From the NCBI RefSeq assembly GCF_025200715.1, contig NZ_CP104143.1:2046001-2110000 (forward strand): a stretch of 64,000 nt of DNA. The letters run 5' to 3'. The position numbers and the translations under genes were made by a program. This document shows, piece by piece, positions 13,386 to 21,611 of the stretch (within the stretch, counting starts at the first letter, position 1; each line of letters begins with the position of its first letter). The notes beneath the pieces are model-generated. The model ran no database searches. It saw only the letters and a program-made list of their open reading frames with translations, and was not told where the DNA came from. This stretch comes from Rhizobium sullae (GTDB taxonomy: Bacteria; Pseudomonadota; Alphaproteobacteria; Rhizobiales; Rhizobiaceae).

Positions 13386-13400
13386 GTTCAATCTTTGTTC
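13386..13400 (+). promoter_or_regulatory. LexA (SOS) box upstream of dinB
   Basis: An exact match to the alphaproteobacterial LexA operator GTTC-N7-GTTC, with the second half-site ending 8 bases before the dinB ATG. It predicts repression of dinB until DNA damage. The divergent acetyltransferase start is 50 bases away and could also be affected. Confidence 0.8.
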
Positions 13401-13408
13401 TCATCACG

Positions 13409-14701
13409 ATGACGCCAACGCCTGACAAGACACCCGGCTTCTGTCGCGACTGCCTTGCCGAGCAGAAGGGCGAGGCACGCCGCTGCATGGCCTGCGGCAG
13501 CCCGCGTCTCGTGCGGCACAGGGAGCTTTACGATCTGACGCTCGCGCATATCGATTGCGACGCCTTCTACGCCGCGGTCGAAAAGCGCGACAATCCGGAG
13601 CTTGCCGACAAGCCGGTCATCATCGGCGGCGGCAAGCGCGGCGTCGTGTCCACTGCCTGCTATATCGCCCGCATCCACGGCGTCCGCTCCGCCATGCCGA
13701 TGTTCAAGGCGCTGGAGGCGTGCCCGCAGGCGGTCGTCATCCGCCCCGATATGGAGAAATACGTCAAGGTCGGCCGCGAGATCCGCACCATGATGCAGGA
13801 GCTGACGCCGCTGGTGCAGCCGCTTTCGATCGACGAGGCATTCCTCGAACTCGGCGGCACCCAGCGCCTGCACCACGATCCGCCGGCGCGGACGCTGGCG
13901 AAATTCGCCCGCCGCGTGGAAAAGGAGATCGGCATCACGGTTTCCGTCGGGCTGTCCTACTGCAAGTTCCTCGCCAAGGTGGCTTCCGACCTGCAGAAGC
14001 CGCGGGGCTTTTCCATCATCGGCCGCGAAGAAGCCGTGGCGTTTCTGGCGCCGCGGCGGGTGACGACCATCTGGGGCGTTGGCAAGGCCTTTGCGGCAAC
14101 GCTCGAAGCGGACGGCATCCGCACGATCGGCCAGCTTCAGACGATGGAGGAGACCGATCTGATGCGCCGCTACGGCAGTATCGGCCAGAGGCTTGCCCGC
14201 CTTTCGCGCGGCATCGACGACCGCAAGGTGCACCTCAACGATCCGGCAAAGAGCGTCTCCTCGGAGACGACCTTCTTCGACGATATTTCGCGCTATGAGG
14301 ATCTGGTGCCGATCTTGCGCAGTCTCTCCGAGAAGGTCTCCTGGCGGCTGAAGAAGAGCGGCATTGCCGGGAGCACCGTCGTGTTGAAAATGAAGACGGC
14401 GGACTTCAAATCCCGTACACGCAACCGCAAGCTGGAGGACCCAACGCAGCTTGCCGACAGGATTTTCCACACCGGCATCGAGCTTCTGGAGAAGGAAACG
14501 GACGGCACGAAATTCCGCCTGATCGGCATCGGCGTCACCGACCTTTGCGACCCGGCACGCGCCGACCCGCCGGATCTCATCGACCAGCAATCCACGCGTC
14601 GGGCGGCGGCGGAAGCCGCGATGGACAAGCTGCGCGAGAAATTTGGCAAGAAGACCGTGGAGACCGGCTCCACGTTCGGCAGCGGCAAACGCGACGGATA
14701 A
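13409..14701 (+). CDS. dinB: DNA polymerase IV (Y family)
   Basis: A 430-residue translesion polymerase. After an N-terminal zinc-ribbon-like CxxC-N10-CxxC (Cys12, 15, 26, 29), the Y-family palm begins at [13 protein letters not shown] (Asp49, Asp51) and the catalytic SIDEAFLEL provides Asp142 and Glu143. Thumb and little-finger regions follow to about residue 390. The extra N-terminal cysteine module is seen in rhizobial DinB copies and is absent from the E. coli enzyme. The ATG has no clear ribosome-binding site and sits just after a LexA box, so transcription may start very near it. Confidence 0.95.
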
Positions 14702-16157: not shown

Positions 16158-16775
16158 ATGCACATGGCCCTGATGAGATTCAGCATGAGCAAGCGCACGC
16201 CGTTCGATCTCGATGGATACCTGCGTGATATCACGACACGGCCCTGCTTTATCTGCGGTGTGGTGAGCGGAGATCCCGCGTTCTTCCATCATCGCATTTT
16301 CGAGGATGAGGAGACAATCATCTTTCTCAGCAAGTATCCAACATTGCCCGGATACTGCTTGGTTTCCCCGAAGAAACACCGCGAAGACTTGGCGCAGGAT
16401 CTCTCGACCGAAGAATACCTGCGATTGCAAAGGCATATACACGTCTTGTCTCGTGCTCTGAAAAAGCTACTCAAGGCCGAAAGGATCTACGTTCTTTCGC
16501 TGGGCAGCCAGCAAGCCAACAGCCACATCCATTTCCATGTGGTCCCTCTGCCCGCAGGCGTTCCGCTCCAGGAGCAACAGTACCACGCACTCATGGCCGA
16601 GCATGGCGTGCTGCAGATTCCGGCCGACGAGATGGCACGGCTAGCGGAGCAGATCACCCAAGCTTTCCTTGAAGAACTGAGCGCTTCAAAGTGCAGGTTC
16701 AGTTCACGACCTAGACAAGCTCGACATCGACAATGCCGGGGGCGGCGCGCAAGGCGGCGGCGATTTCCGGCGTGA
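16158..16775 (+). CDS. HIT family protein
   Basis: A 205-residue histidine-triad nucleotide-binding protein, probably a nucleoside-phosphate hydrolase or transferase. The triad HIHFH lies near residues 123-127 (NSHIHFHVVPL), and CFIC near residues 30-33 is a possible zinc pair. An internal ATG at 16185 (MSKRTPFD) is another possible start. The last 20 or so residues, arginine-rich and unlike the family, are read from the antisense of the dnaE end, an overlap of 65 bases, so the stop was probably lost or shifted. Confidence 0.8.
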   Translation: MHMALMRFSMSKRTPFDLDGYLRDITTRPCFICGVVSGDPAFFHHRIFEDEETIIFLSKYPTLPGYCLVSPKKHREDLAQDLSTEEYLRLQRHIHVLSRALKKLLKAERIYVLSLGSQQANSHIHFHVVPLPAGVPLQEQQYHALMAEHGVLQIPADEMARLAEQITQAFLEELSASKCRFSSRPRQARHRQCRGRRARRRRFPA

Positions 16776-19700
16776 TGCGGTATTTCTGCGGCAGCTCCAC
16801 CTCGACCTCGCGCTTGCCGTCCTCCTTGATGACGATGAAGGAGACGAGGCCGTCGCCCTTGGCGTTCAGATGTGCTGCAACGGCGCGCAGCGGGCCGGAA
16901 TCGCGAACATAAACGCGCAGCGCCTTCTGCATCTGCAGCGATTTCTCCTCGAGCGACTGGATCGTCTGCAAGCGCAGCCCTACGCCTTCCGGACGCTCTT
17001 CGCCGGTGGCGGTGAGCACGAAGGATTTCCCGGCCTCCAGCACATCGCGGTACTGGTTCAGCATTTCGGAGAACAGCACGGCTTCGAACTGTCCGGACGA
17101 ATCCGAAAAGACGATGATCCCCATCTTGTTGCCGGTGCGGGTCTTGCGCTCCTGCTTCGAAATCACAGTTCCGGCAAGGCGGGCATTGGTTGCTCCCTGC
17201 TTCACTGCGGCGGAGAACTCCGCAAAGGTCTGGACCCGCATCTTCTGCAGGATGTTGTTGTAGCTGTCGAGCGGGTGCGCCGTCAGGTAGAAGCCGAGCA
17301 CCTGGAACTCCTTGAGCAGCTGCTCGGAGGCGAGCCAGGGCGAAAACGGCGGCAGCGCGATCTTCTCCGGACCGGACGACAGCGCGCCGCCGAAGATATC
17401 CGACTGGCCGCTCAGCTTGTTTTCCTGCGCGCGCTGGGCATAACCCAGAATTCGATCAAGGCCGGCGGCGAGCTGGGCGCGATCCTGGCCGAAGCAATCG
17501 AAGGCGCCGGCATAGATCAGGCTTTCCAGCACGCGACGGTTGACCTGGCGCGGATCGATACGCAGGCAGAAATCCTCGATACTGGTAAAAGGCTTGTCGC
17601 CGCGCACCTCGACAATGTGATCGACGGCATTTTCGCCGACGCCCTTCAGCGCCGCCAGTGCATAATAAATGCGGTTGTCGCCCGTTTCAAATTGGCGGAA
17701 TGAGCTTTGAACCGAAGGCGCAATGACCTCGATGCCTAGGCGCTTGGCATCCTGCCGGAAATCATTGACCTTATCCGTGTTCGACATGTCGAGCGTCATC
17801 GACGCGGCGAGGAACTCGACCGGATAATGCGCCTTCATATAGGCCGTCTGATAGGAGACGATGGCATAAGCTGCTGCGTGCGACTTGTTGAAGCCGTAAT
17901 TCGCGAACTTCGCCAGCAGTTCGAAGATGTTATCGGCCTGCGGTTTCGAAACGCCGTTGCGGATGGCGCCGTCGACGAAGCGTTCGCGCTGCTGGTCCAT
18001 TTCCGCCTTGATCTTCTTGCCCATGGCGCGGCGCAAGAGATCGGCTTCGCCAAGCGAATAGCCGGACAGGACCTGGGCGATCTGCATCACCTGTTCCTGA
18101 TAGACGATGACGCCCTGCGTTTCCTTGAGCAGATGGTCGATCATCGGATGGATCGACTCGAGCTCTTCCTCGCCATGCTTGCGGGCATTGTAAGTCGGGA
18201 TGTTTTCCATCGGGCCCGGGCGATAGAGGGCGACGAGGGCGATGATATCCTCGATGCAGTCCGGCTTCATGCCGATCAGCGCCTTGCGCATGCCGGCACT
18301 TTCCACCTGGAACACGCCGACCGTTTCGCCGCGCGAAAGCATCTCGTAGGTTTTCTTGTCGTTGAGCGGGATTGCAGCGAGGTCGATGTTGATGCCGCGC
18401 TTGGCGACGAAATCAACGGCGACCTTCAGCACAGTCAGCGTTTTCAGGCCGAGGAAGTCGAACTTGACGAGGCCGGCCTGCTCGACCCATTTCATATTGA
18501 ACTGGGTAACCGGCATATCCGAGCGGGGGTCGCGATACATCGGGACCAGCTTCGAGAGCGGCCGGTCGCCAATGACGATGCCGGCGGCATGCGTCGAGGC
18601 ATGGCGGTAAAGGCCCTCGATCTTCTGGGCGATATCGAGCAGGCGCGCCACCACGGGCTCCTTTGCCGCTTCCTCCTGGAGCTTAGGCTCCTCTTCGATC
18701 GCCTTGGAAAGCGGCGTCGGATTGGCCGGGTTGTTCGGCACTAGCTTACAGATCTTGTCGACCTGGCCATAGGGCATTTCCAGCACGCGGCCGACATCGC
18801 GAAGGGCGGCCCGCGCCTGCAGCGAACCGAAGGTGATGATCTGCGCCACCTGCGCGCGACCGTATTTCTGCTGGACGTAGCGGATCACCTCTTCGCGGCG
18901 GTCCTGGCAGAAGTCGATATCGAAGTCGGGCATCGAGACGCGTTCCGGATTGAGGAAGCGTTCGAAAAGCAGCGAGAAGCGCAGCGGATCGACGTCGGTG
19001 ATCGTCAGCGCATAGGCGACGAGCGAGCCCGCGCCCGAGCCGCGGCCGGGACCGACCGGGATACTATGCTGCTTCGCCCATTTGATGAAGTCCGCAACGA
19101 TCAGGAAGTAGCCGGGGAACTTCATGCGCTCGATGACGCTGAGTTCGAATTCCAGCCGTTCGCGGTAATCCTTCTCCTCATAACCGGGCGACATGCCGAG
19201 GGTGGCGAGGCGCATGTCGAGCCCCTCCTCGGCCTGCCGGCGGAGCTCGAGCGATTCGGCGCGGTCCGCCTCCTCCGGATCGTCGGTGGCGCCGGTAAAG
19301 CGCGGCAGAATCGGCTTGCGGGTCTTCAGCACGAAGGAGCAGCGCCGGGCGATCTCGACCGTGTTTTGCAGCGCCTCCGGCAGATCGGCAAAGAGCTTCG
19401 CCATTTCGGCGCGACTCTTCAGATAATGGTCCGGTGTCAGGCGGAAGCGGCTGTCGTCCGACACGATGGCGTTATGGGCAACGGCCATCAACGCGTCATG
19501 GGCATCGTAGTCGTCGCGTGCCGGGAAGAATGCCTCGTTGGTCGCCACCAGCGGCAGATCGTGCTCGTAGGCAAGCCCCACGACCCTCTGCTCATGACGC
19601 TTGTCGTAGGTTCCATGGCGCTGCAATTCGACATAGAGCCTGCCAGGGAAAAGGCGCTTCATGGCGAGCAGCCGGTTTTCCGCTTGTGCGGCATGCCCCT

Positions 19701-20196
19701 GCTTCAGTGCCACATCGACGGGACCGCCAAGCGCTCCCGTCAGCGCGATCAGGCCCTCCGTTCCCGCCTCCTCCAGCCAGGAGGCGCGGATATGGACCGC
19801 CTGATCGTCGCCGCCGCCGAGATAGGCGCGGCTGACGATATCAACCAGGCGCTCGTAACCTGCCGCGGTCGAGGCAAGCACGACGATCGCCGGTAGCTTG
19901 GCCAGCGCCTGGTGGCCGCCGCGCCTTTCGGTCTCCAGACCGTCTTCCATGTCGATCGACAGCTGGCAGCCGATGATCGGCTGCAGCCCCTCTTCCATCG
20001 CTTTCTGCGAAAACTCGAGAGCGACGAACAGGTTGTTGGTGTCGGTGATGGCGATCGCCGGCTGGCTGTCGCCCGATGCCTTGTAGAGAATCTTCTTCAG
20101 CGGCAGCGCGCCTTCAAGCAGCGAATAGGCCGAGTGGACGCGCAGATGCACGAAACCCGGAGTCCCGCTGACAAAGCCGCTCTCCGCATCCGCCAT
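16711..20196 (-). CDS. dnaE: DNA polymerase III alpha subunit
   Basis: An 1161-residue replicative polymerase of the DnaE1 type. The PHP domain starts at FVHLRVHSAYSLLEGALPLK (about 13-32), the palm has PDFDIDFCQDRR near residue 430 with the catalytic aspartates, and the C-terminal part holds the helix-hairpin-helix and OB regions. Length and domain order match DnaE1 rather than the shorter mutagenic DnaE2. The frame extends 30 codons further, but the ATG at 20194-20196 has GGAAGG seven bases upstream and begins the conserved N-terminus. The 28-codon SOS peptide gene lies 116 bases upstream on the same strand. Confidence 0.95.
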   Translation of the reverse strand: MADAESGFVSGTPGFVHLRVHSAYSLLEGALPLKKILYKASGDSQPAIAITDTNNLFVALEFSQKAMEEGLQPIIGCQLSIDMEDGLETERRGGHQALAKLPAIVVLASTAAGYERLVDIVSRAYLGGGDDQAVHIRASWLEEAGTEGLIALTGALGGPVDVALKQGHAAQAENRLLAMKRLFPGRLYVELQRHGTYDKRHEQRVVGLAYEHDLPLVATNEAFFPARDDYDAHDALMAVAHNAIVSDDSRFRLTPDHYLKSRAEMAKLFADLPEALQNTVEIARRCSFVLKTRKPILPRFTGATDDPEEADRAESLELRRQAEEGLDMRLATLGMSPGYEEKDYRERLEFELSVIERMKFPGYFLIVADFIKWAKQHSIPVGPGRGSGAGSLVAYALTITDVDPLRFSLLFERFLNPERVSMPDFDIDFCQDRREEVIRYVQQKYGRAQVAQIITFGSLQARAALRDVGRVLEMPYGQVDKICKLVPNNPANPTPLSKAIEEEPKLQEEAAKEPVVARLLDIAQKIEGLYRHASTHAAGIVIGDRPLSKLVPMYRDPRSDMPVTQFNMKWVEQAGLVKFDFLGLKTLTVLKVAVDFVAKRGINIDLAAIPLNDKKTYEMLSRGETVGVFQVESAGMRKALIGMKPDCIEDIIALVALYRPGPMENIPTYNARKHGEEELESIHPMIDHLLKETQGVIVYQEQVMQIAQVLSGYSLGEADLLRRAMGKKIKAEMDQQRERFVDGAIRNGVSKPQADNIFELLAKFANYGFNKSHAAAYAIVSYQTAYMKAHYPVEFLAASMTLDMSNTDKVNDFRQDAKRLGIEVIAPSVQSSFRQFETGDNRIYYALAALKGVGENAVDHIVEVRGDKPFTSIEDFCLRIDPRQVNRRVLESLIYAGAFDCFGQDRAQLAAGLDRILGYAQRAQENKLSGQSDIFGGALSSGPEKIALPPFSPWLASEQLLKEFQVLGFYLTAHPLDSYNNILQKMRVQTFAEFSAAVKQGATNARLAGTVISKQERKTRTGNKMGIIVFSDSSGQFEAVLFSEMLNQYRDVLEAGKSFVLTATGEERPEGVGLRLQTIQSLEEKSLQMQKALRVYVRDSGPLRAVAAHLNAKGDGLVSFIVIKEDGKREVEVELPQKYRITPEIAAALRAAPGIVDVELV

Positions 20197-20279
20197 CTTA
20201 TACCCTTCCAATCGCCCGAATGAATCGATTTGCATTGTCGGTGTTGATGACGGCGATGTCCAGAAGCGGTCCCTTGCGC

Positions 20280-20303
20280 GGACCACATGAAGCGATGCGG
20301 TCC
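20280..20303. repeat. Hairpin between the small SOS peptide gene and dnaE
   Basis: GGACCACAT and ATGCGGTCC pair over nine positions (one G-U) around a six-base loop, nine bases after the peptide stop. No thymine run follows in the direction of dnaE, so it looks like a stabilising 3' stem or weak attenuator rather than a full terminator. Confidence 0.45.
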
Positions 20304-20312
20304 CCTGAAAAA

Positions 20313-20399
20313 TTACATTGCCATGAGAATCAGTGAGAAGCTGGCAACAAACATTGCGATGGAGGTGAATGCTGCGATATCACGGATCATGTCAGTCAT
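20313..20399 (-). CDS. 28-residue SOS-regulated membrane peptide, SidA-like
   Basis: The frame begins MTDMIRDIAAFTSIAMFVAS and ends FSLILMAM. It has a short charged N-terminus and one hydrophobic segment of about 20 residues, so an inner-membrane peptide is inferred. A good ribosome-binding site (AAGGAGAG) precedes the ATG. The promoter, TTGACA at 20450-20455, contains an exact LexA box. In Caulobacter the SOS gene sidA encodes a 29-residue inner-membrane peptide that stops division through FtsW/FtsN. Size, topology and control agree, but orthology is not proven. dnaE follows 116 bases downstream. Too short for ordinary gene calling, it is probably missing from annotations. Confidence 0.75.
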   Translation of the reverse strand: MTDMIRDIAAFTSIAMFVASFSLILMAM

Positions 20400-20426
20400 C
20401 TTGCTCTCCTTACTCGTTATGTTTCC

Positions 20427-20455
20427 AATTTGTTCCGCTATTGTTCTGTTGTCAA
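20427..20455 (-). promoter_or_regulatory. SOS promoter: TTGACA, LexA box and weak -10
   Basis: On the minus strand a perfect -35 TTGACA (20450-20455) is followed after 17 bases by CAAATT (20427-20432). Between them lies the LexA operator GTTC-N7-GTTC (20432-20446, plus-strand sense), placed to block RNA polymerase. A possible rightward promoter (TTGTCA 20449-20454, ATAGTT 20472-20477) overlaps, so the gene at 20501 could share the control. Confidence 0.75.
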
Positions 20456-21076: not shown

Positions 21077-21146
21077 TGACGAGTTCTCATTTTGTTCTTT
21101 ACAGGCATACGTTTTTCGGAGAGGTTCGGCGCGGGGGCCGAGCGCT

Positions 21147-21611
21147 ATGAATCTTGCAGCATTGAACAGCTTTATCGTCGAAGCGAAGGCAAATACCTAT
21201 GTCGGCGGCGGGAAAACGTTAGGCGCCTGCCGCGCCGGGTCGCACGACATCGGCTACGAGCGCGGAGATTGGCGCTATCTCGACAGCTACTTTGGCGGAA
21301 CGGATTTCGCCGGACAGGAAGTCGTGTGGCTGAGCGGCGAGCCTATCTGGGTGATGAATTATTTCGGCCGCATCGTCGAGCCGTCGCTGATCGATGGGCA
21401 GAAGGCAGGCGTGGTGATCAAGGCTGCGCTTTCGACGATGTATGCCGAGCACCAGCGCTTTCTGGGCGGCATGGAATTTGAACATGCCTTCGGCTTCTAC
21501 GCCGACGACAGCACCGGCGATTGCGACCACTTCAGCGGGCGGGAAATGATCATCGTCGAGGAGCGGAGAGCCTACGAGCTGGACTATCGCGGCGGCCTCA
21601 TCCGCCCCTAA
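21147..21611 (+). CDS. DUF5680 domain protein
   Basis: A 154-residue protein without signal peptide or membrane segment. FIVEAKANTYVGGG near residues 9-22 and HDIGYERGDWRYLDSYFGG near 33-51 mark the DUF5680 family, which occurs alone or fused to transcription regulators and has no settled function. It ends exactly where the convergent lolD gene ends, with the two stops adjacent at 21611/21612. Confidence 0.8.
   Translation: MNLAALNSFIVEAKANTYVGGGKTLGACRAGSHDIGYERGDWRYLDSYFGGTDFAGQEVVWLSGEPIWVMNYFGRIVEPSLIDGQKAGVVIKAALSTMYAEHQRFLGGMEFEHAFGFYADDSTGDCDHFSGREMIIVEERRAYELDYRGGLIRP

Follow-up and report, generated by a model that had tools for sequence, protein, structure and literature searches.

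A 28-codon membrane peptide preceded by a LexA-type repeat upstream of dnaE in Rhizobium sullae, a putative ortholog of the Caulobacter division inhibitor SidA

Introduction

SidA of Caulobacter (locus tag CCNA_02004, PMC10769358; NCBIfam model NF033228) is described as an SOS division inhibitor of 29 residues that sits in the inner membrane and acts on FtsW (PMC4211646). Changes at FtsW F145 and A246 are reported to suppress both Caulobacter inhibitors, with A31 as a SidA-specific suppressor site (PMC4211646), and AlphaFold 3 models of 2026, not of high confidence, place SidA at FtsW TM7 (PMC13396833). SOS division inhibitors vary by lineage, and the rhizobial one was not named in the literature searched: no paper was found that combined SidA with rhizobia, LexA and division, nor one that combined SidA with dnaE, and searches for SidA homologs and for S. 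meliloti SOS and division gave no title on a rhizobial SidA.

In C. crescentus, dnaE (CC1926; PMC1839093, table) is counted as SOS-regulated (PMC3323433, section 8), and comparative genomics of multi-chromosome alphaproteobacteria, with a species set including Agrobacterium, Brucella and S. meliloti, found genes earlier reported as SOS-regulated, dnaE among them (PMC3323433). Sections 7 and 8 of that paper make no mention of the micropeptide, and the term 'cell division inhibitor' is absent from its main text. In S. meliloti, translation of a small ORF in the dnaE1 5'-UTR, sORF25, was detected by ribosome profiling (PMC10117765); no specific function is assigned to it in the passages of that paper that concern it, and neither 'SOS' nor 'LexA' occurs in the main text.

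Here, a stretch of 64,000 nucleotides of the Rhizobium sullae genome (hereafter the window) was analysed around a 28-codon ORF upstream of dnaE. The encoded peptide resembles SidA in length (28 versus 29 codons), in its single hydrophobic helix, in the LexA repeat 5' of its gene and in its place directly upstream of dnaE; it differs in being without the Caulobacterales W19-M-M-C segment, in not being recognised by NF033228 and in having a Met in its own FtsW at the position of A31. Judged by place, sORF25 is probably the same gene. Compared by description, DidA of Caulobacter is likewise a small damage-induced single-pass division inhibitor on FtsW/FtsI/FtsN, but it has 71 residues, is SOS-independent and binds FtsN (PMC4211646). 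YneA, ChiZ, SosA and SulA are also damage-induced division inhibitors, the first three being membrane proteins with a reported or modelled link to FtsW (PMC13396833), but all four have other domains or targets and the analogy is one of description.

Methods

The 137 family loci comprised 30 genus-level loci, 27 family-level loci and 80 taken from the family-search matches as far as about E 0.012; further matches of that search, many from genera already represented, were left out. L101 and L102 (44 aa, no repeat and no dnaE) were rejected as false positives and stay in the count of 137.

For the Caulobacterales, an LpxI query from PDB chain 4ggm, a Caulobacter protein, gave 80 matching loci, most of them from Caulobacter and Phenylobacterium, with C. 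vibrioides DSM 9893 matching at 100%. A dnaE search in 26 of the 80 LpxI-matched genomes then gave 26 Caulobacterales dnaE loci.

As decoys for the profile comparisons, 633 hydrophobic ORFs of 25-45 codons were taken from the same loci, none of them upstream of dnaE and none sharing a 10-residue word with any family member; no removal by eye was applied.

A class-level search with the peptide family gave weak matches outside the family. When 28 of these (L138-L165) were checked, just L143 and L161 lay by dnaE, so the survey was anchored on dnaE instead and exact repeats were recorded up to 650 bp upstream of it. At the order level, 68 loci of the 91 genomes matched were used, two of which were same-family genomes; at the class level, 89 hand-picked loci, mostly the nearest in dnaE, were used out of 236 matched genomes, four of them of the same order.

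Results

The ORF and its expression signals are listed in Table 1. The ATG, the 28 codons, the Shine-Dalgarno sequence and the one hydrophobic segment were all found as stated in the earlier note. The best 19-residue Kyte-Doolittle mean of the peptide was 2.19 (residues 8-26), with values of at least 1.95 in 103/103 distinct rhizobial 28-mers, 92 of which have K/R at position 6, with no other K/R anywhere. Read on the plus strand, the LexA-type repeat (20446..20432) is GTTCCGCTATTGTTC, that is GTTC-N7-GTTC. TTGAC stands directly 5' of the repeat in 30/30 genus loci, and purine-rich sites resembling AAGGAG were also seen in the other loci inspected for them. The TTGACA and the exact LexA box claimed earlier were present. 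The -10 is poor, and a sigma-70 scan of the window did not flag the peptide promoter. Given the weak -10, the placing of the box between the -35 and the -10 depends on the position of the -35.

Table 1. Features at the peptide-dnaE locus, in window coordinates.
Feature	Position	Strand	Remarks
28-codon ORF with stop, putative SidA-family single-pass membrane peptide MTDMIRDIAAFTSIAMFVASFSLILMAM	20313..20399	-	ATG at 20399
LexA-type direct repeat GAACAATAGCGGAAC	20432..20446	-	exact GAAC-N7-GAAC
-35 element TTGACA	20450..20455	-	TTGAC kept in genus loci
Weak presumptive -10, CAAATT	20427..20432	-	17-bp spacing from the -35
Shine-Dalgarno AAGGAG	20406..20411	-	six bases 5' of peptide ATG
dnaE, DNA polymerase III alpha	16711..20196	-	NF004226, 1507 bits
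TGGACA-N17-GACAAT, likely dnaE's own promoter	20234..20262	-	promoter scan
Hairpin past peptide stop, no U tract	20280..20303	-	fold z-score -1.32

The peptide was matched in 37/37 genus genomes, own genome included, with one match per genome, and in 1/24 genomes of other families (E 0.15), where the lone match (G049) sits just upstream of that genome's dnaE. In the family search, 195/297 genomes were matched at E up to 1, many weakly. The earlier proposal to look for conservation of the frame, the membrane segment and the LexA box next to dnaE was borne out across the 137 family loci: exactly 28 codons in 130, the exact GAAC-N7-GAAC between 60 and 15 bp upstream of the ATG in 120 (reversed orientation 0/137), and dnaE on the same strand no more than 800 bp downstream in 128, at 84-665 bp. 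A one-mismatch repeat was present in 14 of the 17 loci without the exact one. As a named case among rhizobia, Shinella sp. PSBB067 has TTGACA, the repeat, a 28-codon peptide of 71% identity and dnaE downstream. Six family members have the peptide and the exact repeat with no dnaE within 800 bp; dnaE follows 1.4 and 1.7 kb downstream in L125 and L132, respectively, and L112, L115, L134 and L137 showed none in the roughly 3 kb looked at. In L115, L134 and L137, the peptide and the LexA repeat are followed after 74-93 bp by an ORF of 420-548 aa, and these ORFs are similar at the N-terminus by eye.

In the 30 genus loci, mean pN was 0.057 and mean pS 0.355, with a pN/pS of 0.16 (407 of 435 pairs, restricted to pS below 0.75), and the first, second and third codon positions had 5, 2 and 22 variable columns, respectively; across all 130 28-codon sequences (6369 pairs) the pN/pS was 0.43. 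A frame lost while its flanks were kept, named earlier as the pattern that would speak against the peptide, was the opposite of what was seen, the ungapped pairwise identity being 0.872 for the ORF and 0.29-0.56 for the neighbouring 84-nt blocks, where indels lower the values. From these substitution patterns, the peptide frame is judged to be under purifying selection. On all the evidence taken together, the ORF almost certainly encodes a real SOS-controlled peptide.

Significance from the number of repeats alone was rejected, the 64-kb window holding 5 against 2.15 expected (not significant alone) and the genome 136/129 against 116/119 for a reversed-pattern control; the significant feature is the fixed position of the repeat 5' of a conserved ORF. 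Sixteen own-genome stretches around repeats, mostly with AT-rich spacers, were fetched from the first approximately 100 of 265 places listed. Among them, one repeat starts 64 bp 5' of the lexA ATG, another lies between uvrA and ssb, and further ones precede a UvrD-type helicase and a radical-SAM gene, all five proteins being confirmed by Pfam. The GAAC-N7-GAAC type is the predicted LexA box of this organism. No recognised repair gene adjoined the remaining copies among the 16 stretches, so the repeat alone is no proof of SOS control.

Several further repeats were observed in passing. One copy (L435, G000:C1:416464) is identical in 15/15 bases to the uvrA/ssb copy and starts 65 bp 5' of an ORF with a PEP-mutase domain. 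In the window, the gene of a Y-family (IMS, DinB-type) DNA polymerase at 13409-14701 (+) has an exact GTTC-N7-GTTC at 13386-13400 (+), 8 bases ahead of its ATG; it is probably the second SOS gene of this stretch, and its leader would be very short. Another repeat with an AT-rich spacer, at 21083-21097, lies 49 bp 5' of a DUF5680 gene at 21147-21611 (+) that adjoins an FG-GAP gene, and this may be a further SOS gene. L035-L039, L062, L063 and others have a tandem overlapping pair of LexA repeats, at about -47 and -36; the offset of 11 bp, one helical turn, suggests that LexA binding is cooperative or doubled in several genera.

The likely dnaE ATG at 20196 lies 116 nt past the peptide stop, the ORF list starting dnaE at GTG 20286. 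TGGAC[AT] occurs between the peptide and dnaE in 30/30 genus loci, and the full TGGAC[AT]-N15-19-GACAAT in 21/30; because this motif is conserved, dnaE is likely to be transcribed from its own promoter, and the SOS promoter may also induce it by read-through. For the hairpin past the peptide stop, which has no U tract, a terminator role is doubtful, as its fold z-score is weak on its own and the terminator scan found none. Of the genus loci, 15/30 have a perfect stem of at least 8 pairs there, the window's own copy being without one.

In C. vibrioides, a 29-codon ORF lies directly upstream of dnaE. Its ATG is preceded by the same LexA repeat, here GAACATCTTGTGAAC, which starts at a distance of 64 bp, and 35 bp separate the end of the ORF from the dnaE start, a position that was estimated by alignment. 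Of the Caulobacterales sequences, two were run against NF033228 ('cell division inhibitor SidA'), and this ORF matched the model at 2e-20 and 72.4 bits against a cut-off of 35. SidA therefore adjoins dnaE, in the position that the peptide has in rhizobia. A SidA-type peptide was found at 26/26 Caulobacterales dnaE loci examined, with the exact repeat in 19 and a near-match by eye in L285, L292, L296, L298, L300, L301 and L305.

A profile of Caulobacterales SidA (18 distinct sequences) gave 10.2 bits on the window peptide. The best of the 633 decoys reached 3.0 bits, and 92/103 distinct rhizobial 28-mers scored higher (AUC 0.996); with this and the C. vibrioides ORF, the earlier SidA-like reading was supported beyond its original grounds. 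When the dnaE-upstream ORFs were left among the decoys (708 in total), the top score of 56.3 came from a Caulobacterales SidA, and the five further ORFs that exceeded 3.1 were dnaE-adjoining peptides, or longer forms, of other families. In the reverse test, which was weaker, the rhizobial profile gave 6.7-14.5 bits on the 18 Caulobacterales sequences, none of them above the best decoy at 29.6 (AUC 0.993); four decoys away from dnaE scored 29.6 (twice), 20.0 and 14.8. Composition-matched shuffles gave an AUC of 0.983, or 0.966 with residues 9-28 alone shuffled, and since single shuffles rose to 8.8 and 17.0 bits, as high as true members, individual scores are not decisive.

The start-anchored ungapped profile comparison gave P 1e-4 by permutation of all columns, and 0.008 by permutation of columns 8-28 only, using the 13 Caulobacterales sequences of exactly 29 residues. 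With longer Caulobacterales forms trimmed to the last 29, the columns common to both groups, in the same register, were R6 (K/R), D/E7, A10, F/L11, S13, I/V14, F17 and V18; conservation of one helix face fell short of significance (P = 0.069). NF033228 itself gave no match on the window peptide, and among 53 rhizobial relatives it touched two (best E 0.026). Homology of the rhizobial peptide to SidA is very likely on these comparisons, and by sequence and place the peptide is classed as a homolog and positional ortholog of SidA that the curated model NF033228 does not cover.

Beyond the family, the exact repeat was found upstream of dnaE in 34 of the 68 order loci and 18 of the 89 class loci (reversed orientation 5 and 7, respectively), against 0.82 and 0.62 loci expected from shuffles, and was absent in 71/89 class loci and in half of the order loci. 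It was followed by a short membrane ORF in 32 and 17 loci, respectively. The repeat together with an ATG-started ORF was observed in 32 (order) and 15 (class) loci and in none of the shuffles. These peptides are 24-47 residues long, and W-x-[DE] near the C-terminal end was noted by eye in 14/32 order peptides. The Caulobacterales profile separated them moderately from another decoy set (AUC 0.82 for the order and 0.75 for the class), from which 13 peptides had been removed by eye and which tilts toward the SidA reading, so the case at these levels rests more on place and LexA-type control than on sequence. The arrangement of peptide, repeat and dnaE recurs in other alphaproteobacterial families.

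Discussion

The ORF, the LexA-type repeat, the conserved frame, length and place and the homology to SidA are observed features of the locus. As a working model we consider it likely that the peptide is the rhizobial ortholog of SidA, released from LexA control to hold the FtsW/FtsI/FtsN septal synthase inactive; the model predicts that LexA binds the repeat in the cell and that the peptide is induced, as well as its membrane orientation and its target in division. In an undamaged cell, LexA would occupy the GAAC-N7-GAAC repeat and block the peptide promoter. Upon DNA damage, RecA would trigger LexA cleavage and the 28-residue peptide would be made and would insert a single helix into the inner membrane, whose orientation, judged by K/R at position 6 with no basic residue after it, is probably N-in. 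The peptide would then bind the FtsW/FtsI/FtsN synthase and keep it inactive until repair was done. By analogy with SidA, a role as division inhibitor is probable, and the arrest would act through FtsW/FtsI/FtsN. The FtsW of the same genome is identical to that of Caulobacter at 175/381 positions and keeps F145 and A246, and with Met in place of A31, the peptide-FtsW contact may have co-diverged.

A leader peptide (uORF), whose translation would regulate dnaE in cis and whose amino acids would matter little, is unlikely. It would accord with the 84-665 bp between the peptide and dnaE in 128/137 loci, with the hairpin past the stop in some genus loci and with the listing of sORF25, in the dnaE1 5'-UTR, among possible uORFs (PMC10117765), but residues rather than bases are conserved (pN/pS 0.16), a promoter-like TGGAC[AT] stands between the peptide and dnaE, and a place always directly before dnaE is contradicted by the six members with peptide and repeat and no dnaE within 800 bp. 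SidA itself, moreover, works in trans (PMC4211646).

A TisB-type SOS toxin, which would depolarise the membrane and slow growth by a lower proton-motive force, is quite unlikely. The 29-residue SOS peptide TisB is similar in size, and the single hydrophobic helix and the LexA-type control would also fit; however, 0 Pfam families matched the peptide at E up to 1, although Pfam includes a TisB family, the sequence homology points to SidA, and in contrast to the patchy spread of type I toxins, one copy was present in a fixed place in each of the 37 genus genomes.

That the repeat serves dnaE, a LexA-regulated alphaproteobacterial gene by comparative genomics (PMC3323433), and that the ORF is a passenger, perhaps translated and with no function of its own, is highly unlikely in view of the fixed 28-codon length, the residue-level conservation family-wide and the place of the repeat before the peptide's own -35, Shine-Dalgarno and ATG rather than before the dnaE promoter.

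The reading as a SidA ortholog provides a one-gene candidate SOS division inhibitor across the Rhizobiaceae. The LexA site that the literature assigns to dnaE would probably be primarily the operator of the peptide, which suggests a reason for the presence of dnaE in alphaproteobacterial LexA regulons. It is reasonably likely that SidA is an ancient alphaproteobacterial SOS micropeptide by dnaE, the owner of the 'dnaE' operator, of 24-47 codons and drifted past the curated models, that many rhizobia carry this checkpoint unrecognised, and that at least one copy is prophage-like. Many natural SidA variants would allow mapping of how a single helix shuts down FtsW, and a relevance to bacteroid development, where rhizobia cease dividing, may be speculated.

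A phage collection searched for SidA-like peptide copies gave no match. Among the family loci, L118 (G134, match about 3000) encodes a SidA-like 29-residue peptide, without a LexA repeat, in a prophage-like recombination module that contains members of the PHROG NinB/Orf and exonuclease families and an SSB, and this peptide is possibly a phage-borne division inhibitor.
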